From: Haliclystus octoradiatus
Taxonomy: Eukaryota; Cnidaria; Staurozoa; Stauromedusae; Haliclystidae
NCBI GenBank assembly: GCA_916610825.1
Contig: OU744449.1
Coordinates: 4,508,743-4,572,742, forward strand
DNA: 64,000 bases
Direction: 5' to 3'
Part shown: positions 17,501 through 63,235 of the stretch, piece by piece
How positions within the stretch are numbered: the first letter of the stretch is position 1
Layout: each line of letters starts with the position of its first letter
The notes under the pieces: generated by a model
The model's input: the letters and a program-made list of their open reading frames with translations, nothing else
Told to the model about the DNA's origin: nothing
The model's database searches: none
Program-made: the position numbers and the translations under genes

Positions 17501-17713
17501 TCATCATTTATTCAGACATATCTGATAAGTATTTTACAGCTAGTTGAAATAAATCGCCTGATGATCACCTTCTGGCGTGAAACTTGAAGTGGCGGAAATC
17601 TAAAATGTTTCATTTTTGACTCTCACTTTGTATAAATGCTCTGATTAATTTTATTGAGCACTATACCAAGAACTGGTGTAGAACAATCCACCTATTAATA
17701 TTATTATATTATT

Positions 17714-17770
<57 letters not shown>

Positions 17771-17802
17771 TATTATTATTATTATTATTATTAATATTAT
17801 TA

Positions 17803-17840
<38 letters not shown>

Positions 17841-20800
17841 TTTGTCATAAACTTTTTTGAGGTAAACTTTTTATTTTTACTAAATTTATCTCTCTTTTGT
17901 CGATTTTTTTTGCTCAAAATTTTTCTCTGCTTTCGGTGCAATAGGTCCTAAAGTTGTAAAAACGATTTGGTTTTTATTTTTCAATATTAAGATTGAAAAA
18001 TGAAATTCAGGGTATTCTTTTTCATATAAAATGAGAGTCAAAAATGAAACATTCTAGATTTCCGCAACTTCAAGTTTTTGAATTTTTGATGAAATTTTGT
18101 TTGATAGTTGAAATAAATCGCCTGATGATCACCTTCTGATGTAAAACTTGAAGTAGCGGAAATCTAGCATGTTTTATTTTTGACTCTCGTTCTGTAAGTA
18201 TTATAAGAACGGTATTGAGATACTTTTTTCATTTGCTGGCAACATTTTAATATTACATTTAAAAGATCGATGTGTATACAGAATAAGGAACAACCTGATG
18301 TTGATTGATTAAAAGAACGATAGATTATGTGGATTATTTTCTAATTAATAAATCTTTTGTTTGAAGAGATGGAGTAACTGAGTGATCTTTGTTTCACAAT
18401 TTATATTACACTGTTCTTGGCATTGAGCACTCTATTTTTTTTTTATTATTATTATTTTAATGTAATTCATTTTATCTTAATATTTGCTATATACCATAAA
18501 TTTGGTAACCGACAAAAATATATCTAACTAATTAACTATCACTGTCACCTCAATGTTTTGCCGGCATCGCAATGTTATACATATGTTGCAAAATATTTCT
18601 GTTTTGAAACTATTTGATACGTGAGTTACTTAAACCATTGTTTGTTCACACCAAATAATATTTATATATATATATATATGCACGGCTTTGAGAAATAACC
18701 TTCTTAATCTTTCAAAATTACCTCCTTAAATTTATTCCTGTTAATCGGCTTCTTATTCAGTCACGTGCAGGCCAAAAGCGCTGAAATATATACTTCTCAA
18801 ATTGACGATAATATTGACAGCAAAAACATCGGAATACATTTTGTAATCTTGTAATTACTAAGTTTTGTAATAAATCAAAACATACTTATGACTATTTTTG
18901 GATTTTTCCGCGATTTTTACCCACTGTTTACTCGTACGGAACTGCGTCACTAAGAACGATAACATTGACGTCAAAACCCAAAGGGGGTAACTGCCATTGA
19001 ACTTCGACGGGATTGCTCAAATAGAACTTTAAGAAGATGACCATCAAAATGTTTCAGGTCAAGAAAAAGATACCCCAAATATTTGTAAATAAGACATGCT
19101 ACCCTGAAAAAGAAAAAAAACAATTAAGCAAAAAAATATCCCATTTTGGATTGCATCATTTTTTGATTTGCATTTGCAATTTTGCACCACGTTAAAATGT
19201 GTACGTCAAAAAATGTTTCTGGTAAAGCATGCCCTAAAATTTTTTTATGAATTTTGAAAGAGATACCATCAAATATTTGAACATCCCCCTATACCAAAGT
19301 ATGAAAGTTACCCCGGGCGTCAATAATAGCGCTAGAATACACTCTGTAAGTTTATCTAACTATCGGCAGTGGTTTATAATAATCATAAAATATTATTATT
19401 GGATTTTGTGGGATTTTTACGCACTTTATAATAACACGGTCTTATAAAATCACAATAATAATGTCTTGCCTACCTCAACCTTGAGTCTCTAGAATTACGC
19501 CGCCTTAAGTTTGATCTTCACATGGTCTTTAGAATTTTGAAAAACTTGATTGATTTGGCTCCAGATGAATTTTTCACTATTAAACATTCCAAATATTCCT
19601 TGCGTGGACATTCACTGACGCTGTACCCAACTAAATCATTTAACTATGACTGTTGCAAACATTACTTTGCAAATAGAATAATCAAGCCATGGAACTCTCT
19701 TCCTGAAGAAGTTATATCGTCTAGTTCTTTACAAACATTCAAATTTAAACTTAATCACGTTAATTTATCACAGTTCTGTAACTTTTCCTTTGCCTGTTAA
19801 TTATTTCTGATAGCATAGTTTTCTTTATATATATATATACTTTTTTTTTAATGGTCACATGTAAGTGAGGATACATTTAAAAATATCCTCCTTTGTTTAT
19901 TTGCCTGTTAGCCATTGTGCTACAAAATACATACATACATACATACATACGGGACTGCGTTATTTTGCACGATAATATTGACGTTTGACACGAATAACGG
20001 AATGAGATCATTTACACGTGAGTAGCGTGTATTGTATGCAAATCAAATCACGGCAGAGAATCGATTGAGAACATCCAGCACTGTGTTGATTGTTGTTGTT
20101 TACATGTTTAATCAAGTTAATCATTTTTGTTATCCTAATTGATGAGAAAATTAGTTTTGGTAATTAAAAATGTATTAGTAAATCTGTGGCGTAATTGCAT
20201 CGATTGTTGTCATAATCATGTATGTTTTACAGGAATTAATTGATTGTAATTTGTAATCTGTAAAAAATGTTATATTGATTGAAAATTTCATGTGTAATTG
20301 ATTGATTATTCACAGCAATGGCATTTTTATCTTTGTGTTCAATTAATTAATTAGTAAGATCAAATATATGCAATTATGCATTATCTGCATGTGCACGAGA
20401 TGTGGGCAATTCTATCTTTTTGAGTATCTCGATCCGATATCCGATCTTGATTTGAAACTTGATCCGAGTCCCAAATATTAATGATCCAATTTGGGACCGA
20501 AATAAGTCTCCTGTTATGACTGCAAAATACTGAATAATTACTACTATAAGTGAATCTGAATATATCCTTTTGAGTATCTCGATCTGACCTGGATTCGAAA
20601 CCTATTCCGGGTCCTAAATATTATCCAAAACGGGCCTAAGTAAATCAAGCCTCCCGTCATGAGTCTTATGGCTGCAGCTAGCATAGTATACTGACTAACC
20701 ATAGCAATCGACAATATTTGGTGCATGCTGTGTATTGATTTTAGATCCTGTTTTAGATCCGGCTCGATGTTACTAGGATCCAGATCCAATTCGGATTCAG

Positions 20801-21342: not shown

Positions 21343-22489
21343 AAATCAAAACTAAACATTCCACACGACGCAATCAAAATTCATTAATAATTCACTATCA
21401 ATTTGATGTATAATCATTTTTCAATCATTTTTCAATAGTTTATTAAATTTGTAAAATAGTAAATACGTTTGATTCCCTCTTTAATATAAGTTGTTGAAAT
21501 TTTGAATTCCAATTTCTGTCCAAAATATGATGTTGTTTTTGCTGAAACCTTTGTGGATCGGCCTTCGACCTCTGCTAACCGACCAAACATTATATGTTTT
21601 CATTATTTTAATAAACAGTAATGATATACTGATTTAATACGAGTTAAGACGCACAACAAGTACTATATACCATAAATAACAATCTATTATACAGCATAAT
21701 AGCTATAAAAATATTATTTTTTCGTTTTACAACTAAAAACAGAAATATTAAAGTGGTTTTCATAACTTTAAATTAAGACTATACCAATTTCAATTTGTTG
21801 TTCAGGAAAGGATGGATTGATTATCATTTCTATCCTTTCTATAGCGGTATGTGGAATTTTGAAATGTTAATTGAATAAAGAAGCAATGATCTCAATAATG
21901 ACTTCATATAGACGCTTACACATTGCTACTTGTCGGAGGTAAACTCTATAAAGAAATATTTTTATCACTCGTTTAACTTGTGATGTGTTACTTACAAACT
22001 AATAGACACAACTTAATACTATTTACTCATTACTTATTGGCGTCTAATGATGTTTTCATCCGATAAGTGACAAGTAACACAGCACTTGTCATGCCGCGAT
22101 AATATCAATCCAAATACCGCCATTTTTTATCAAACGGTTCATCTTACGGCTTTTACGCGGTTCTTCGCAACAGGAACAGGCGCTATACTCTTCAAGAGGC
22201 CATCCTTTAGTTTAGTCAAATCATTGCCTGTGTCGTGACCTAAATAATACTGCAGTTGGCAGTTAATCGAAACAAACGAGCTGATGAAAAAATTTCCTTT
22301 ACTGTACTTAAACTATAGCTATTCTTTCGTTGCCGTAGGTGAACATTTTGTAGTGAAACATTTGACGCTGGATATATCATTTCTTTGATTGGCATTTCAA
22401 TTACGCCATTATTTTAACGGAGATTTAAAGAAGATATGCCTTAAAATTAGTATTATATTATCATTGTTATCCACGACTTGGAGTACAGG

Positions 22490-23506
22490 ATGTTTATTCT
22501 ATTGGCGTTATACATATTATTCATTATTTCTACAGAATTTCAATATTTTGTACTAGCAAAATCAACATGTAACATCAAATCTAAAGCGACGAATAAATCA
22601 TTATTTTACAAAAATTACGATTTCGTTGATAGATTATCAAACAGATCATATTGCAATGATTACAGAAGAGATATTGGGCAAAATATAACAACAATAAACT
22701 TATCGCGATTGGTCATACAGATGATGTCAGCGGGTCAAACTACTTCTCGAAGTTCAAGAATCGGCCGCAAAGTATTTGGCGTTGACAATCGTATGAGGGT
22801 TCCATCACAAACTTTAGCTCAAAAATTCCCATTTTCAGCAACAGTTTTAGTAAATAAGGGTTGCTCAGGCACGTTAATTTGGAAAAAACATGTTTTGACT
22901 GCAGCTCATTGCATACACGACGGAAAATCTCTTCGAAAAACTAGTGGTTTTAAAGTTGGTATATTAAATTCTAATAGTGAATTCCAATGGTTTAAAGTCA
23001 AGAAAGTATATCTACCACAATCGTGGTCACGAAAAATAGGCCTAGGTCAACTTGGTCATGATTATGCTGTGTTAGAATTATATCTGCCACATAATCGGAA
23101 ACATTTTATGCCACTTCTGAGTAGTTTAAAATCAAAACAGTTTGTTCAATTCGCTGGATTTCCGGCTGATAAACCGAAAAATCAAATGTGGTTCTCGTAT
23201 TGTCATGTTGTCGATCATACGAAAAATTTATTTTATAATCATTGCGATTCCGTAGCCGGTATGTCTGGTTCCGGTGTTTATGTATTCCGTAGGAATCCGG
23301 AAACTGGTGCTACATCAAGACGGCTTGTTGGTGTATTTTCATCGTTTGTGAAATGGAGGTCACGTGATGGTAAAGTGAAATTTGCTTCAAATGTTGCTAC
23401 AAAACTTACTTCGAAAAAAATACAACGTATATGCCATTGGATAGGCCTTGGACGTCGGTGTGAAATTCTTCACAAAACCTTACCGCTTGTTACAAATCAC
23501 GTTTAA
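22490..23506 (+). CDS. PRSS23-like secreted serine protease
   Basis: Single exon, 338 residues from the ATG at 22490. The N-terminus is hydrophobic (MFILLALYILFIISTEF), a signal peptide or signal anchor. The trypsin-like domain starts near residue 110. It has GCSGTLIWKKHVLTAAHCIH with the catalytic His at residue 140, HDYAVLEL with the Asp at 191 and AGMSGSGVYVF with the nucleophilic Ser at 259. The HVLTAAHCIHDGK block, FQW.(K/R)V, the C-terminal ICHWI and the lack of a GDSGGP motif match the PRSS23/PRSS35 group rather than digestive trypsins. PRSS35 has lost its Ser, but this protein keeps the full triad and should be active. The coding region is intronless, as in vertebrate PRSS23. The physiological substrate is unknown. 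A candidate poly(A) signal AATAAA is at ~23994. Confidence 0.93.
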   Translation: MFILLALYILFIISTEFQYFVLAKSTCNIKSKATNKSLFYKNYDFVDRLSNRSYCNDYRRDIGQNITTINLSRLVIQMMSAGQTTSRSSRIGRKVFGVDNRMRVPSQTLAQKFPFSATVLVNKGCSGTLIWKKHVLTAAHCIHDGKSLRKTSGFKVGILNSNSEFQWFKVKKVYLPQSWSRKIGLGQLGHDYAVLELYLPHNRKHFMPLLSSLKSKQFVQFAGFPADKPKNQMWFSYCHVVDHTKNLFYNHCDSVAGMSGSGVYVFRRNPETGATSRRLVGVFSSFVKWRSRDGKVKFASNVATKLTSKKIQRICHWIGLGRRCEILHKTLPLVTNHV

Positions 23507-39679: not shown

Positions 39680-39905
<226 letters not shown>

Positions 39906-40060
39906 TAATTTATAATTCATTCATCTTGTTGCATAAATTGTAAAAGTCTACCATCAAGGTATCTGTTTTCTAAGGCCAAAGTGAAGGAAATAAATTTTTT
40001 CCCAATTTCAAAAGGAAAAACATCTTTATAACACCGACTACCATTTCCAGCTAGGTGTAC
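39906..40060 (-). repeat. Repeat end with (ATT)n tail, inverted partner of 44031-44176
   Basis: On the minus strand this ~155 bp block reads toward the (ATT)n tail and keeps an open frame ending LALENRYLDGRLLQFMQQDE then a stop, preceded by VHLAGNGSRCYKDVFPFEIG. The block at 44031-44176 encodes nearly the same peptide. The arrangement resembles the 3' end of a retroelement with a microsatellite tail, but the protein is not recognised. Confidence 0.75.
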
Positions 40061-40568: not shown

Positions 40569-41021
40569 TCACGAGTTACATGCTCGACAATTGCATGATT
40601 GTGGGACTAAAATAGGTACTTTCTTAAACCGTACTTTTCTACTTTCCATAATTTGTCCATCATTTATTCGGTCATTTGAAGTGTTTTCTTGGGTGCAACG
40701 TACCAAAACAAATAGTCTATTTGTGCCAACCGGCGAACAACATTGACATTTCTTAATAAAACCTTTCTCATAAATCATCGATTCCGTTTCGGACATACAA
40801 TAACCTTGACATCCATACGTTCGTATCGTAACTCTTTTACAATTAGGTATATCCATATCAACTTTAATAGGTTTCTTAGTGCACATCAACGGTGCAGGAG
40901 GTACGGACGATCGACCCATAATTGGATGTATTAAGAATGTAACAACAAATAGTAGAATGACGATATAAAATGATTGATTTGGAACACGTACTTCACTTAG
41001 AACTCCGGCGAAGACGTTCAT
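40569..41021 (-). CDS. Bursicon-family cystine-knot hormone
   Basis: 150 residues from the ATG at 41021; upstream in-frame codons lack an ATG. A hydrophobic stretch (FYIVILLFVVTFLI, residues 18-31) is a probable signal sequence, so the product is secreted. Eleven cysteines lie at 47, 61, 71, 75, 92, 94, 95, 109, 143, 145 and 148. The spacing C-x13-C-x9-C-x3-C, then CxCC, then CxCxxC is that of bursicon alpha as known from arthropods, and the count of eleven is the bursicon number. The GFIKKCQCC stretch is closer to bursicon beta. NTS at residues 113-115 is a possible glycosylation site in a loop longer than usual. Bursicon subunits dimerise and act on LGR-type receptors; which subunit this is cannot be decided. 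Another DAN/glycoprotein-hormone-type knot is less likely. The coding region is one exon, and upstream non-coding exons are possible. Confidence 0.85.
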   Translation of the reverse strand: MNVFAGVLSEVRVPNQSFYIVILLFVVTFLIHPIMGRSSVPPAPLMCTKKPIKVDMDIPNCKRVTIRTYGCQGYCMSETESMIYEKGFIKKCQCCSPVGTNRLFVLVRCTQENTSNDRINDGQIMESRKVRFKKVPILVPQSCNCRACNS

Positions 41022-41129
41022 ATCCAGCGAGCTATACAATAAATAGCAACAACAACAACAATAGCATGAGTGATGTATATCGGTTATAGTACATGTCACG
41101 ATCACAATAAAAGAAGAAATCAATGTTTG

Positions 41130-44030
41130 TATAATTGTAAAGTCTTGCTTGTATTAGAGAGAACGACACTATACACGATAGGTGATCGTGTGTGACTGGA
41201 ATGCTGTTCATAAATTCTCTCCTCAATTCACATAGCTATAAAAACTTTCTGCACAAGAAGATAGATAGAGAAAATAAATAAATATATATAATCATCAAGT
41301 AATTTTCTGACTTAAAATAATCATATAGCAATAATAATAATAATACGGAATTATTTGATAATTTATGTATTACAAATTATTATTATCATTATATTATTTT
41401 GGTAAAGTAAAAAGCCGCGTGATCATTAATAGTGTCCGTTGTTTGTGCCGCAGCATGGATGAGCATATGCGGTCATTTAATAGATAAGTGAGCGAAACGC
41501 TGCTACAACAAACGGTTCATGTCTTCTAGCATAGTTGCAATTCCAATACTATGGAGTTGATGCAACCAGTCTACTAACCAGCTATTACGTTTTTCTATAG
41601 ACACAAACTATGGATGGCGCCCACAAAATGAAAAACCCATGTAGATTGCAAATGATCAATGATAGTGTGTTTGAATCCGTTTCATAAAAAGATAACACAG
41701 TGAAAATCAAAGGGACGATCGTTTGATATCAACACTAAACCAGTACATTGTTAACCAATAACACACTCACCTGGACTCAATGTTGGCAGAATTTCTCTAC
41801 GAACACCATATCAAATAAGGATATGTTCACTAAAATACGCCATGCATCAGTAGTTTTCAACGTTGCACGTTTAAAGAGGGCTATTTTCTCTGGCCAATCT
41901 TCGACTGAGAAGACTTCACGGTGAATGCACTCGTGACAATATTGATCTTCAAGTCAAGCTGGTCTAAAACTAATTGGTATGCCCTCCGTAAGATACACTG
42001 TTCCTTATGATGACGTCAGCAACAGGCTTTTCAAACTATCTACAAGTGTACATAGTACGCATAGACACTCACCGTGTCGTATTTGCTCACACTTTACAAC
42101 CGGGCGCACTTTCAATTGACTAAGTGGACGCGGGGTTGTAGCGATGAAACTGTTGTTTACGAACCACTATTCTAGTTAACGACACGTGAGAGCATTGTTG
42201 ACGATATAGGACGATGATTGTTAAGACAACACCCTTTACAAAGTTAACAAAGAACAGTAGAGTACGACTGAGTATATATGATGTCAACAAGATTGGCTGC
42301 GTAAAATGAGAAGAAAAAATGGTGATATTGACTTGATAATGAGTAAAGAAATCGAGCGAATAAAGTCAGTAAATTGACAAGCAAAATACATCCTAGAATT
42401 ATTGATGGCTACATTCATCTATTGTTGATATGGACGTTACACAGAGAACTAAAAGAGAGCGTACAGGTATTGTGATTAGACGTTAAACACCCGCTGACTT
42501 TCGGAAATGCGATTTAAGCCAATCACGGTACCGTTACAATTACAACCAATCAGATCAATTGATTCCTTAAACGACCCCATCTCTCAGCTTATCGTTATTT
42601 GTCTGATAAAAATACAAGAGTATTGCTTCTTCTTCTTCATCATCTTCTTCTCTCTAGCATGATTTCAACGTCTTGACCGTTGGTTAGACTCACAGAACCG
42701 ATCCAACCACACTATTGAATTATTCAGGAAATCATTTACAATTATACAATGATTTATATGGTATTATTATTATTTGAAGAAAGCATGACAAGTTTGTAAT
42801 TAATTCCTGAAACCGGGGAGGATGGTGTAAAAAAGATATATGCAAGACAAAAAGGGAAAAACATATAGGCGAACCAGAAGCCGTAGAGACAAGTGGGTGA
42901 CAACAATATTATTTAACATGAAAACATAATCAATAGAAATTTGAAAAGCTCCTGAATTGAAGAAAAATGCGAGGGAGTTAATTTAGAAGAAATTAAGAAA
43001 ACGATTTCTTGCACTGTACAAAGATCTATTGTTGAAAATTAAAATTCATCAATGATGATCATACGAAAAGTATTAACCATGAAAAGATTCTATTGATATT
43101 TTAAATTTTGTTTTCATTATGCGTTAGAGAATTATAAAATGCGGCAAGTCTTTTAAGAAACACCACAGAAATTCAATTGGTTATTATGTAACTCTAACTG
43201 AGCGAACAACGCTACAAAATTGTAAACATTGATATTCTTCAAAGACAAAACAATACATTATCATAGAGGTTTATGTTGGTGCTAGAAAAATGATAAAAGA
43301 ATTCTGGACATTAAACAATCAATCAAACCCTATATATCGTTCATTCATCCATCCAAAATTGAGCTTAAATGCAGAGGCAGATAAAATAGATAAATAATAG
43401 TTTAATTCTGCACTCTCAACATCTTGCAAAAAATGGAAGCTTTTAGTCATTTATCGCCTTATTATAGATATAATATTTATTATATATTTAGATACTATCC
43501 AATGGTATACAAATAGTGCTCAATTGCAGAATTTGACAATCAAAAGTAAATAAAATAAAAGGAGTCAAAGACTATATACATTCATAATTGTTACTAAAAG
43601 TTTCATGCTTGAACACAATAATCTGACAAAGAAACTTTTGCACTGGCCTGCACTACGCATGCAGTTTGTCAATCATTTTTCTTTGAATGAATATTATACC
43701 ATAACAATAATACACACACTCTAATATTTTTTTTATAAAAACACATTTTATCAGAATATCGAGGCTCAGATACTGTGATATTTTAAAAATAAATTAAGAA
43801 CATTCAGAGGCTATATTATAATGGAAGATATTAATTTTAAATGTAAATAACATCTATTACGTTTTCAACAAAGAAAATTAGAGGCTCAATTATATAGGCT
43901 AAACTTAATTTTTACATGTTTTTATAAATGTATAGAGTGCATAGGCCTCTTAATGTATAGATCGATTACTGATATAAAAATACTACGAGAGTTAGAATAA
44001 GAGTCAAAAATTATCATTATTACTATTACC
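41130..44030. other. No gene seen
   Basis: AT-rich sequence upstream of the hormone gene on its strand, probably holding its promoter, but no TATA box or initiator could be fixed. No long frames or conserved motifs were seen. A TTC/TCA-rich tract lies at ~42625-42655. Confidence 0.55.
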
Positions 44031-44176
44031 GTACACCTAGCTGGAAATCGTAGTCAGTGTTATAAAGATGTTTTTCCTTTGAAATTGGGAAAAAATTTGG
44101 CCTTAGAAAATAGATACCTTGATGGTAGACTTTTACAATTTATGCAACAACATGAATGAATTACAAATTATTATTA
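44031..44176 (+). repeat. Repeat end with (ATT)n tail, inverted partner of 39906-40060
   Basis: A forward copy encoding VHLAGNRSQCYKDVFPLKLG, then LALENRYLDGRLLQFMQQHE and a stop, followed by (ATT)n. Compared with the left copy it lacks a few codons before LALENRYL. Confidence 0.75.
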
Positions 44177-44179
44177 ATA

Positions 44180-44410
<231 letters not shown>

Positions 44411-53760: not shown

Positions 53761-54011
53761 TTATATAACAAGAGTAGTGTTATGTGAAAACACAAATCAG
53801 ATCCCCGTTAAGACATTTAAACTTTATATAAATAACCTTTATAATAATATAGACGATAGGAAGATAATCTCAAATTTAATACACGACACGTACAATCTTT
53901 GCAAGCGGTCAGTCAAAATGGTCCTAATTGGCAGGTGTTCCTCTTATTCTATTATAGCCAGATTTATATATATATTATATATATATATAACAAATATGAA
54001 TATGAATAAAA

Positions 54012-54051
54012 CCGTCTGAGGAGCGCTACAGCGCGAAACTTCGAGTAACGG
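54012..54051 (+). ncRNA. Complete type I hammerhead ribozyme motif
   Basis: All conserved parts are present in order. Stem I 5' strand CCGT is at 54012-54015 and core CTGAGGA (CUGANGA) at 54016-54022. Stem II GCGC/GCGC is at 54023-54026 and 54031-54034 with loop TACA. Core GAA is at 54035-54037. Stem III ACT/AGT is at 54038-54040 and 54044-54046 with loop TCG. The cleavage nucleotide A is at 54047, and stem I 3' strand ACGG at 54048-54051 pairs fully with CCGT. Cleavage is predicted after 54047 in the GUA context. Short stem III hammerheads of this kind occur in Penelope-like elements and metazoan retrozymes. The host repeat around it is not defined here. Confidence 0.85.
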
Positions 54052-54156
54052 AGAAAACGTCTCGTTTCTTATTTCATATCTATATCTATATATATAATAA
54101 TATAGTATGTTTCAAATTTAATAAAAATTTAAAAATATTGGCAGGTGAACAGTGCT

Positions 54157-54258
54157 CAATGATTGTAAATAGCAGAGCGGTAAATAATAATATAGTCAAG
54201 AAAGACACACCATTTTGCTGTTACTTGAAGCTTCACGTTGTTAAAGGATCATCAGACA
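54157..54258 (-). repeat. Family X copy with decayed hammerhead
   Basis: On the minus strand CTGT-CTGATGA starts at 54258 and the 3' stem strand ACAG ends at 54218. The GAAA block is changed to GAAG and stem II is poorly paired. The trailing unit has tattatttaccgctctgc and ttgagcact as in other copies. Confidence 0.7.
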
Positions 54259-54616
54259 GAATACAATTGTATCGAATTGAAGCTACGTGAAAATATTGCA
54301 CATATATAATATATCACATTTTAGATATAAAAAAAGACTTGAAAATTGTAAATTCTTCTCAGAACTTTTGTTAAAATATTGACAGATCTTATCAAATGAA
54401 AGTCATGTATAATTATCTTACTGTTTGTACAATCGTGTATAAAGCGATATATCTCAATCATGTGATGCTATATTCATTGATATTATATATACTGTATAAC
54501 TCTCTATTATTATTATTATCGTATCTTCAAGATCAAAAAAAAAATAATAACTTCCTTATTTATATATCCCTTATAGTTATTATATGGGTTCTTACCATAT
54601 ATCTCGATTTTAATCA

Positions 54617-55554
<938 letters not shown>

Positions 55555-58500: not shown

Positions 58501-61500
58501 AATACTGTTAGTTGCCTATACAGTATATTGTAATCAGTCCTGTGAAAAATGCTTGAAGCTTATCAGGTTCTGAATGATGATGATGACGATAATAATTATT
58601 GTGATTGAAGTGATGTCATCAGATTAAGTTTACAGATTGAATACGAGGTCTCTGCCAAGTTGACTATAGATCTTACAGTATTTGTAAAACTTTGTCTTAC
58701 TGATTGAACATAGGACCCAATGCAAAATATAGCAGAGCTTAAATAATAATAGTCAGAGAATTAGACAGTCATGTTTGACGCCGAGGCGATCATCAGGCAA
58801 TCTATTCAATGATAAAAAACACTATACCTTCTAGATACATACAAAATAGGGTGCTATTGTTTTTAAGGCTACTGTTAATTTTATGGATATAGGTTATTTT
58901 ATTGTTCTTTATTCCGGCGATGCTGTGATAATATATCATGTTTTAAATTTTGACAGGTAAAATTTATTTTCATGTCTAACATTTTGATATCATTTCGGTT
59001 TTTTTATTAAGAATGTTTTTATTAGAGGAAATTGTATGATACTTTTCTGTAAGACATAAGTCGCATTTTTTGATCTTACAGTATAGATAGTCGCATTTTA
59101 TAGTCGCATTTTTAGATCTTACAGTATATAATAAGTATAGGTTTATCTAATAGCAGACAAAATAGTGCTCAATGTCAACATTTGGCAGAGCGGTAAATAA
59201 TAATAATGGTGATAGATCAAAGAAAACACATTCTTTACTGTAACTCCAAGTTTCACGCTACTGCGATCATCAGACAGTTTTTTTTTTTATTCTAAAAAAA
59301 AAAATTAGAATAAAAAAAAACTGTCTGATGATCGCAGTAGCGTGAAACTTGGAGTTACAGTAAAGAGTGTGTTTTTTTTGATCTGTCACCATTATTATTA
59401 TAGATCTTACAGTATAGATAACGAGTGCGAGGTGGTTTAGTACACCACAATAAATCAATTACTAGTCCGTATACAAGTTTAGGGTATAGCCAGATATATC
59501 AGATAAACAAGTACGACTATATTATATTCTAAAAGTTGAAATTTTCAAAATATGTTTGAACATACAGCAAATTTAAATGTGAAATGTCAATGTTAAAAAA
59601 CCTCTTTTTTTATTAAAAATATAAAAAATAATCCATCGAAATTCATTACAATAAATCATCTATTTTATTTGAATGATCTATCTATTTTAATTTGTAAAGA
59701 AAAATATTTATTTATTTATACATTCCTTCAATGGCTATATATAAAGTTAAATTCTAAAATGACTTGGATCGATTACTTTTTGCAAAATGTTGGATAAACT
59801 CAAATCAACAACATTTAAATTGAAAGTACAATTTTTACTGAATGTGAATTCGACCCAATTTGCATTTCTAGGTCAAACGTAAAGCCTAAATGTTTCGTTC
59901 CTTTAATCACTGATCAAATTAAATGGCCAGTATAAGAATATAAGCTTGTTTATGATCTGAAATTCATCTGTTTATCATGTCTATGTCATTTTACAGTATG
60001 AGTTAATGGGGGGTTTCTTATGAAAAACTTGCAATCAAATAAATAATTGACTGCAGGGTTCGACAAAGTTTGGAAACTTGGAAACCTGGTTTGCGGAAGG
60101 CTAGCAAAATTCAGAAGGAGAAGGCAAAATGCTTAATATAATACATAAATTAAAATTATTAGAAAAATATAAAATATAAAATTTAGTTTTTACGAATTCA
60201 TGTCAGTACAGTTACTCAAAAGTTTATCTAAAAAGTTGAGGTTTGCGGAAGGTAAAACATTTTGTTGGACCCTGATTGACTGTGATGTAAATTACCTAAA
60301 CAAATAGATCGGTCACATCAATCAATCATTTATTTAAAGGTGATTTTTTCTTAATTTTTATTTTTAGCATATTTTTTGTATTGATATATCTTTTCCAGAT
60401 GCCAAACCAATAGTGATTCTGCCAGGGATTGAACCCAAGACCCTGCGGGCCGAGATCCGAATCCCTAACCATTACATCAAGGCTGCATCACCAGCCCACA
60501 ATGCATAGATTTGTCACTTGTATACAGTAGTATAAATTACATGTAACATTTATATTTATCTTAAAGATTTTTGTTACCAATGTTATGCTTCCGAAAAATA
60601 TCATAGTTATTAATTACCAGCTATATTTCGACATTATCATATAACGGAATACTGCCCCCAATTACTACAAACAATGTATTGTTCAGATAGTATCAGACAC
60701 CTGTCAACATGTTTTTAATCCAAATTATTTGGGATCAGTTTCATCACCTTAAATCTGGTTAATTCATTTTTGGAATATTCCTCTTATTAGGTGGGGATTC
60801 CCCTATACCGGTTAGAAATCGTGCGATATAAGCATTACACCATCAGACTTTAAAAATTAACAGATTGATTGTTGGAAAAAACTATAGCACCCCTCTGACG
60901 AATACACAGATCGAATCACCTCGCGTTCGATAATTCGCTAGCTGCTGATTGGTAGGGTATCTTTTTCATGATCTGAAATATTTTTCATACATCCTTCCAA
61001 AGTTCTATTTGAACAACCCCGTCGAAACACAATGGTAGCTGCCCCCGGGGTAGAATATATAAGATCGTATGATTTTTGAACGATTTTTGAACAATTTTAT
61101 CAAACTTAGTTTGATAAATTATGCTCAGTGAGACGTTTTATATTCGCAATATGTGGCATGCATGGACTATTCCGACTATCGAAATCAATTATGCTAAGTG
61201 AGACGTTTTCTGTCCACAAAATGTGGTAAGCATATGAAATTCTGCCATATATACTTACCTATTGTAAATACCATTCCAGGTTGCATTGTACCAGGATGTT
61301 CGTTATCTAGAATAGAAAACAGAACGATTGAAGATGATAATAAATTTCTAGTAATCAATTAATGTTCAGTACTTGATGCCAGCATGATCACTTTACTCCA
61401 CTTTACCAACAGCTGTTTCGTATAACGTTACCAACGGTTGTTTCATTTACCAGCTGTAGAGTAGCGGAAAGTAGTGGGTCTTGCGGAACTAGGTTATAAA

Positions 61501-63235
61501 ATAATGGCGCATTCCCGTATACAGCCTGTATGGAAACACACCCAGGCAGGCATTAATCAATCTTCTCTTCAAACACTTTGACCTGTTTTAGATTTATCTT
61601 TTGTATCCAGATAGTATTTCTTAGCATTCACGTCATTGTATGGATTATAGTAGTAGTATATAGCTGACAGCCACATTATAGGCATATTACTTCCATTTTC
61701 CTCTTGACATATTTAATACAAGTCAAATAACGCCACAAATCACGGTCAGGAATAGCTGACAAAGAAACGTGTACGTAAGACAATTCAAGATACAACACAT
61801 TATGAAAAAATACTACAGTACTATGAATTATGGATCACGGTACTCATTGATTATAGGAAGGCATAATTATAAAATGAATGTTCCTATGTCATATAGCCTT
61901 GGATTTTTCACAAAATAGAAACATGCGCACTTTTAACTCACAGAAAGTAGGCTCTACCATTGAAATATTGGTTGTTTACCATCAAGTCAAGTGAATCGCC
62001 TTTTATTGGTTTAAAATTCAGCCAAATGCACATCTATATGAATCGATCAATACTATATCGAATAACATCTTGATCATGTAACATATTTGTTATCTTACCA
62101 TGGTGAAATATCGTTGGTGCGCAATGAAAGTCGGTACCAATTCCATGACCAACTAGATTACGACAAATCGTGTAGCCAGCATCATCGCATATCCGACTAA
62201 ATATTAAAATTAAACAGATGATGTTGCAAGAAATAAATAATAATGAGCATGGCAAATCAGGGAAATACCAAATTGAAAGTTGAATAAAAGTTGAAATTGA
62301 GAGAGGATGGGGGACTTTCAAACACGTCATGGAATTTTGTTTACTGTACGAGCAACCTATATCAAAAACCTGTTATAGCGGCCACCTCTATACAGCATTC
62401 ACCTGTCATTAGAATCCAGGGTTCTACAAAAGTGGGAATCCTGGGGTCAGATTGCAGAGGAGCGTAGAGAAATTTTGCAAGAAAATTTATAATTTTCTGA
62501 TTCATAGTTCAAATTCAATAATATATGAAAAGAATTATTATCATGAAAACACAATGTATATACAACCCCCTGTCTATTGTGGTCAATTACATTCGTGACA
62601 TACACCCCCCATGGCCGATGAGAAGGGTAGTTAAGTGGGCATTTTAGCCGGCATCAGATCAGACAAAGTCACACTTACTGGTTGATGATAATGATGTTGT
62701 TGTTGTTGTCAATAGATTATCAGTATTTTCTATTCATCATAAGCCATAAATTAGCTTAAGTTACATATTTCTAAATTTAATTTTAATATCTATACTACTA
62801 TATGTAAACTTTAATTTGCCCTTTGTATGCCTTTTGTTTCATTATGGTGTGTGCCGTTTGTCCTGCCAAATAAAGACAGATTTATCCAATAATACAGGAT
62901 GCAGTGATTCCATAGGGCCAGCAAGGATTATTGCTACATTTGATTGTGAATTTGAAATTGGTTGCAGATAAATTTTGAAAAAAATTCAGAGTGTAGTAAA
63001 AACAAAAATGTTCAGGGCTTTATAGGGAAAATCTCATGGCAAACAATTCCTCTTTTCAGTCTTGTAAATACCTTATGGCTTTACCAATCTCTTTAAAATG
63101 GGCCCCAGGTCCACACACACTGATGCCAGCAGTCAAACATTTTCTCGCTGTTTCAAAAAGACGTATTCCTTCTGCATCAACATCACCCACTAAATATGTT
63201 TCACATAAATCACCATGGTAACCTTTATGAAATAC
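55573..63235 (-). CDS. METAP1D: Methionine aminopeptidase 1D (mitochondrial type), 3' part of gene
   Basis: Five minus-strand exons join in phase, read from high to low coordinates: 63235-63072, 62196-62099, 61306-61259, 56987-56909 and 55639-55573 (456 nt, 152 codons). They encode VFHKGYHGDLCETYLVGDVD, ARKCLTAG, NLVGHGIGTDFHCAPTIFHH, MQPGMVFTIEPVICEGSPEV, ILDDGWTVITVDNGR and TAQFEHTLLITTRGVQVLT. Four of the five metal ligands of M24A peptidases are visible: Asp in GYHGD, His in GHGIG, Glu in FTIEP and Glu in AQFEHT. The first Asp (NIDV block) must lie in an exon beyond 64000. The enzyme removes N-terminal Met from nascent chains; the 1D assignment rests on the EGSPE, DNxRxAQFEHT and I(T/S).RG stretches, which resemble METAP1D more than METAP1. 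The end is uncertain: either a small last exon follows the gtaagt donor at 55572, or translation reads on five codons to a stop at 55555-55557. Confidence 0.92.
57548..57620. repeat. MITE family D fragment (left end)
   Basis: CAGGACCCGACAAAATCTTT followed by gcaaattcagtagaaat matches the hAT-type family. The right end was not found. Confidence 0.5.
58727..58800 (-). repeat. Family X copy with decayed hammerhead
   Basis: On the minus strand CTGATGA (58796-58790) is followed by a GCC/GGC-type arm and TCAAAC in place of GAAAC. The gagcttaaataataat block matches the gagcggtaaataataat block of other copies. Confidence 0.6.
59237..59278 (-). ncRNA. Hammerhead ribozyme motif (one stem II mismatch)
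   Basis: This is the exact reverse complement of the motif at 59320-59361. It has an ACTGT/ACAGT stem I, CTGATGA, GAAAC, and an ACT/AGT stem III with a T at the cleavage site. The first stem II pair is T-T instead of G-C, so activity may be reduced. Confidence 0.7.
59320..59361 (+). ncRNA. Hammerhead ribozyme motif (one stem II mismatch)
   Basis: Stem I ACTGT (59320-59324) pairs with ACAGT (59357-59361). The core CTGATGA is at 59325-59331. Stem II is CGC/GCG closed by AGTA, with a T-T mismatch at its base. GAA is at 59344-59346. Stem III ACT/AGT has loop TGG, and cleavage is predicted after T at 59356. Confidence 0.7.
60054..60274. mobile_element. hAT-type MITE family D with perfect 8-bp duplication
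   Basis: The left end is CAGGGTTCGACAAAG and the right end TTTTGTTGGACCCTG. The duplication ATTGACTG at 60046-60053 and 60275-60282 is exact. Interior gtttgcggaagg words occur near both ends. An 8-bp duplication with a CAGGG start is typical of hAT elements. It lies in an intron of the aminopeptidase gene. Confidence 0.92.
60396..60498 (-). mobile_element. tRNA-derived SINE head, minus strand
   Basis: On the minus strand there is an A-box-like TTGATGTAATGGTTAGGG, the GGCCCGCAGGGTCTTGGG block shared with the SINE at 6479 and a B box GGTTCAATCCC. The tail is replaced by AT-rich sequence. Confidence 0.8.
60785..60955. repeat. Dispersed repeat family H, inverse of 34056-34214
   Basis: It is the reverse complement of the 34056-34214 block, with matching ccggttagaaatcgtgc and ctctgacgaatacacag stretches. 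A family E end follows directly at 60955-61050. Confidence 0.65.

Follow-up and report, generated by a model that had tools for sequence, protein, structure and literature searches.

We analysed a 64,000-nucleotide stretch of the genome of the stalked jellyfish Haliclystus octoradiatus (the window), in which 40 bases of the plus strand, at positions 54012–54051, form a hammerhead ribozyme motif. COI of this genome reads with genetic code 4; a leech or another annelid as host, and an invertebrate mitochondrial code, were considered and rejected. Judged by its letters the motif is confirmed as a genuine one of hammerhead type, and self-cutting is predicted. Taken jointly, the observations are best explained, in our view with good probability, by a pseudo-long terminal repeat (pseudo-LTR) hammerhead of a Penelope-like retroelement (PLE) left on a truncated copy, which would act as a double hammerhead, together with priming of reverse transcription at two sites.

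The hammerhead motif and its copies

The sequence 54012–54051 is the hammerhead core of family A. It has the CUGANGA and GAA letters, an H base at the cut site and three helices at the core, and the conserved elements placed here by a first-pass annotation were borne out letter by letter. That annotation had also described a type I-like core within a repeat, very unlikely to have arisen by chance. A motif script requiring CTGANGA, GAA, a stem III closed by A-U, H as the cut-site base and a minimum of 4, 3 and 3 pairs in the stems gave three matches in the window (the three intact hammerheads of Table 1) and 0 on either strand when run on 20 Mb simulated from a first-order Markov model. Across the assembly (261,861,806 bases), the exact family A core is present in 192 copies and a relaxed core in 4,152 copies (∼16 per Mb); for each, the same pattern read backwards gave 0. 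Both descriptions are thus upheld. Similarity searches with the region gave 60 and 63 matches among the 40 best-scored candidates.

The 26 distinct copies used to build a covariance model, R1, include two that lie in the window. The 54012 motif scored 65.1 bits against this model, being itself part of the training set. Seven motifs were found by R1 in the window at E ≤1.1e-6, three intact and four decayed, and the next candidate had an E-value of 0.27.

Compensatory changes between sister copies were found in stems I and II. In alignment A1, 6 of the 11 pairs were altered on both sides, amounting to 29 cells compared with 9.0 after shuffling. The A1 motifs had been preselected for at least 4, 3 and 3 pairs, which inflates the pairing percentages, and four distinct CATGTA-type motifs were omitted. 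The compensatory stem changes expected of related copies are therefore present, among sequences chosen for pairing.

Complementarity of the stem III centre

Of 150 fetched cores, 149 had complementary bases at the first and third positions of the stem III loop, 72 as Watson–Crick pairs and 77 as G-U, with 67 of the latter belonging to family A. When the cores were reduced to distinct types, some of which are near-duplicates, the loop ends were complementary in all 31, compared with 24.4 after shuffling. Among the 4,152 relaxed cores the loop ends were U-A in 1,550, C-G in 938, A-U in 808 and U-G in 708, with 148 falling outside these four classes; the stem III centre is self-complementary in at least 4,004 of them. 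Centres of 2 nt also occur (10 fetched, 287 genome-wide). The outer pairs of stem III are invariant and the fourth pair varies. With the partner slid by +2, 92.3% of cells still pair, with little covariation.

A fourth stem III pair would leave a hairpin loop of one base, which RNA does not tolerate. Between two molecules, the stem III letters give a helix of 4+1+4 or 8 pairs. A complementary centre is thus useless in a hairpin and is expected of a double hammerhead. The first-pass annotation had proposed a 3-bp stem III with a triloop; its letters stand, and the structure is doubtful because the loop ends are complementary almost everywhere and the exact hammerhead fold of the 54012 motif has a probability of only 2e-4. 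These letter patterns suggest that the motif works in pairs rather than alone. The double hammerhead was more stable than two single ones in 10/10 cores with at least two copies, and PLE hammerheads may cleave as dimers according to the available part of PMC7761336.

The host element and its insertion ends

The hammerhead lies ∼180–226 nt upstream of the start codon in 11 of the 12 copies with an open reading frame (ORF) that were examined. The ORF encodes a reverse-transcriptase palm of the telomerase-like type that defines PLEs, and its C-terminus is weakly GIY-YIG-like. ORF-bearing elements carry identical hammerheads at their two outer ends, and the elements have the pseudo-LTRs, in tandem or inverted copies with an optional tail, that are typical of PLEs. 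The suggestion in the first-pass annotation of a Penelope-like element was therefore well founded.

To describe the insertion ends we used 69 merged segments (311 kb with the window) containing 162 cores. Of these, 35 belonged to other families and 4 were cut by a segment end, leaving 123 that were placed on seven family leaders. There were 55 cores ending ≤10 nt from a hairpin, module 1, and 42 ending ≤10 nt from a second, module 2; 20 continued past the ATG and 6 ended elsewhere. Terminal ends thus fall at two places in 97/103 cases, each just before a hairpin module with the layout GCUC, inner stem-loop-inner stem, 2 nt, GAGC. The inner stem covaries in module 1 (83/90 pairs compared with 74.4 shuffled, 0/2,000) and weakly in module 2 (25/27 pairs compared with 23.4 shuffled, 105/2,000).

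Head-to-head pairs combine the two kinds of end. We scored 20 of 24 pairs, the other 4 having one end that runs into the ORF. With both ends terminal, 18 were mixed, one was short-short and one was long-long (P 2e-4 if ends are independent). A cruder earlier count (n=29) gave 21 mixed, 4 half-typed with a short end, 3 long-long and 1 short-short. Twin priming, with one site per target strand, would be the simplest account of the mixed ends.

Every scored end crosses the cut site into the upstream body, in a sample selected partly on the presence of the hammerhead. The template was therefore continuous there, as either an uncut tandem RNA or a religated circle. A full hammerhead was lacking at 43 of 208 leader places; their starts were scattered, with no peak of truncated leaders at the cut site (2/43 within 2 nt). 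The lack of any sign of cut RNA as template fits circles, and it also fits a ribozyme of little importance.

From these observations we propose the following mechanism. Two hammerheads of one tandem transcript, in which each ∼2.5-kb unit carries one, would pair up into a double hammerhead, with two ACUnnnAGU (or ACUnnAGU) segments building its helix III. This structure would cleave the transcript into single units and could also ligate these into circles. The element protein would start reverse transcription at two leader sites, one for each cut target strand, and each site would lie immediately 5′ of a GCUC...GAGC hairpin; the outcome would be inverted copies arranged head to head, tailed at one end and tailless at the other. 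The template would span the cut site, as an uncut tandem RNA or a religated circle. A stronger version is a tentative proposal, and we think it less probable than not: that the two hairpin-marked starts are strand-specific, that every complete event is a tailed/tailless pair, and that a two-molecule ribozyme is selected for closing 2.5-kb template circles.

The features of the window are collected in Table 1. The family A stub around the 54012 motif is ∼90 bp long and its 3′ end lies 2 nt before GCTCTG, the place of hairpin module 1 (C5:4562758); its boundaries are approximate because the flanks are TA-rich. This stub is a dead end and no independent element. One clear target-site duplication, of 16 nt, was found, around the 59129–59400 pair; most other pairs could not be scored because they lie inside TA repeats.

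Table 1. Hammerheads and associated features in the window
Feature	Position	Strand	Basis or remark
Stem I, CCGT	54012–54015	+	54012–54051 motif
Core, CTGAGGA	54016–54022	+	54012–54051 motif
Stem II 5′ strand, GCGC	54023–54026	+	54012–54051 motif
Stem II loop, TACA	54027–54030	+	54012–54051 motif
Stem II 3′ strand, GCGC	54031–54034	+	54012–54051 motif
GAA	54035–54037	+	54012–54051 motif
Stem III, ACT	54038–54040	+	54012–54051 motif
Stem III centre, TCG	54041–54043	+	54012–54051 motif
Stem III, AGT	54044–54046	+	54012–54051 motif
Cut-site A, predicted cut after 54047	54047	+	54012–54051 motif
Stem I, ACGG	54048–54051	+	54012–54051 motif
5′-truncated stub of family A PLE, 'short' end	54000–54090	+	End alignment, limits by eye
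Leader piece with module 1, 3′ of decayed 54217–54260 hammerhead	54148–54216	-	80% identity to family C leader; only the 54148 start taken from the alignment
Decayed hammerhead, other family, GAAGC for GAAAC	54217–54260	-	R1, 42.4 bits
Left target-site duplication, TAGATCTTACAGTATA	59113–59128		16-mer exactly twice in window
Short head-to-head inverted pair, family C	59129–59400		Long (tailed) end left, short end right
Intact hammerhead, left arm of inverted pair	59237–59278	-	Script and R1
Intact hammerhead, right arm of inverted pair	59320–59361	+	Script and R1
Right target-site duplication, TAGATCTTACAGTATA	59401–59416		16-mer exactly twice in window
Decayed hammerhead	17553–17596	+	R1
Decayed hammerhead	18117–18160	+	R1
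Decayed hammerhead	43587–43630	-	R1

Long (ATT)n-type arrays occupy 17693–17839, 39681–39909, 44167–44410 and 54617–54941 of the window, and the (TAT)n array from 17693 follows the decayed hammerhead at 17553–17596. Microsatellites may be seeded by PLE ends, since an ATT or TA repeat often adjoins the end of an element. Pieces of host genes for a trypsin-like protease (22451–23503, plus strand; Pfam E 1e-9) and a cystine-knot protein (40572–41150, minus strand; Pfam E 2.5e-5) are also present, as is a weak peptidase M24 match below the Pfam cut-off (62037–62369, minus strand). Elsewhere in the genome, C1:11374789-11375261 holds a dense and unusual array with cores every ∼59 bp on one strand, followed by two on the other.

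Known systems, alternatives and significance

The closest known relatives are the minimal type I PLE hammerheads (Cervera and de la Pena 2014; Lunse et al. 2017), as described in the available part of PMC7761336. They share with the Haliclystus motif the core, the pseudo-LTR place, the tandem context, the proposed dimeric action and the many dispersed copies. Most of them are said in reviews to lack helix III, whereas Haliclystus has a self-complementary ACUnnAGU or ACUnnnAGU of 8–9 nt. The classical minimal form CTGATGAAGGCTAATGGCCAGAAACATGTA was not found in the window with up to 3 mismatches allowed. A separate repeat with CTGATGAAGGCTAATGGCCAGAAACATGTA occurs in 8 exact copies in the merged segments; it resembles the described minimal PLE hammerhead with palindromic ACAUGU, and a stem I beside its core is not obvious. 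A third hammerhead class in the same genome, GAAACAUGUA, also resembles the described minimal form.

PAc, the Poseidon-type PLE of Anolis carolinensis (PMC11167929), has two adjacent reverse-transcription starts with the tail between them, and its cutting and extension involve both strands of the target. Like the Haliclystus elements it has a hammerhead near the ORF start, two adjacent starts, an intervening tail, AT-rich targets and processing of both strands. Its starts lie inside the ORF, which overlaps the hammerhead, whereas in Haliclystus both sites precede the start codon, in the leader, and each has a hairpin on its 3′ side. The Penelope elements of Adineta vaga, as far as the available part of PMC3846280 describes them, also form inverted, head-to-head pseudo-LTRs with an optional one-sided tail, junction palindromes and target-site duplications (8–10 bp). 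Their 31-bp tail reaches into the ORF, self-priming is proposed for their inverted pairs, and the word hammerhead is absent from that main text.

Several results weigh against the pseudo-LTR, double-hammerhead and two-site explanation. No hammerhead was returned by Rfam 15 at gathering score for the window or 16 source sequences, nor at E ≤10 over 53900–54200, and the Rfam match named as a check in the first-pass annotation was thus not obtained. The annotation had counted the lack of a covariance-model match among its grounds for refutation, as it had a lack of sister copies with compensatory changes, which were found; the silence of Rfam may reflect a limit of its models for the short hammerhead class. 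The loci were fetched by similarity and are non-random, and the copies are kin to each other, so the counts are not of independent events. Further pair types in A1 numbered 10 compared with 11.7 shuffled. The first stem II pair (A1 columns 13 and 27) is missing in 13 of the 26 distinct motifs, mostly with U opposite U; the available part of PMC7229834 describes a U-U mismatch at the same pair in an axolotl hammerhead. Besides the low fold probability of the 54012 motif, its stem III pair probability was 0.00, and the minimum for 53990–54090 folded as a single strand was not a hammerhead (z −1.44). In nearest-neighbour folding the monomer hammerhead came within 1.5 kcal of the minimum in 0/10 cores, and the dimer hammerhead was ≤3 kcal above the minimum for the dimer in only 5/10 (for family A, −23.4 compared with −30.5). 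Searches of Pfam (a 139-aa piece and the ORFs), NCBIfam (the C-terminal part) and PDB sequences gave no supporting match for the protein, and both structure models were poor (mean pLDDT 52.9 and 54.3). The missing peak at the cut site belongs here too. For the anole PLE, the hammerhead showed no activity without protein, insertion in vitro could do without it, and the two strands showed no difference in start site in vitro (PMC11167929), unlike the 18/20 Haliclystus inverted pairs that combine both sites.

One alternative is that the sequence is kept for another RNA or DNA role, such as element-protein binding or templating, and no longer cleaves in life. The few truncated leaders beginning at the cut site agree with it, as do the scored ends, which all cross the hammerhead as if uncut RNA had been the template, the cleavage-independent insertion of the anole PLE and the unfavourable monomer folding. 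However, the catalytic letters are kept across families with differing stems, although the cores were picked by those letters, and binding alone would not lead one to expect hammerhead residues preserved to the letter. We consider this possibility unlikely.

The first-pass annotation had also proposed a non-autonomous, retrozyme-like element. Metazoan non-LTR retrozymes likewise have type I hammerheads, tandem repeats and animal hosts; those described in the available part of PMC7229834 are small (about 170–400 nt) ORF-less RNA circles whose canonical hammerheads make loop contacts. A monomeric type I hammerhead of such an element would agree with the short, ORF-less hammerhead copies that are common here, the window copy included. 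However, identical hammerheads lie at the outer ends of ORF-bearing elements and 5′ of ORFs, the short copies resemble truncated ends or short inverted pairs, and the stem III centres are self-complementary. We dropped the retrozyme reading, now very improbable, because ORF-bearing relatives exist; the copy in the window is what 5′ truncation left of an element of autonomous type. Coincidental resemblance to the hammerhead consensus would agree with the Rfam result; it can be practically dismissed, given the simulated sequence and the relaxed pattern, which has 4,152 copies where its reversal has 0.

Earlier publications already cover PLE hammerheads and their action as dimers, as well as head-to-head pairs and single tails. 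What is added here is the host and the scale, together with the complementarity of the stem III centre across the genome and the rule of two hairpins and two ends; our literature search found no publication joining Haliclystus and hammerhead. The role of PLE hammerheads and the origin of inverted PLE copies are described as open in PMC7761336, PMC3846280 and PMC11167929. With its many nearly identical copies that carry an ORF, drawn from several families, a chromosome-level assembly and deposited poly(A) RNA reads (ERR9434978, named in PMC9975415), Haliclystus octoradiatus makes dimeric cleavage, circle formation and strand-specific starts testable.
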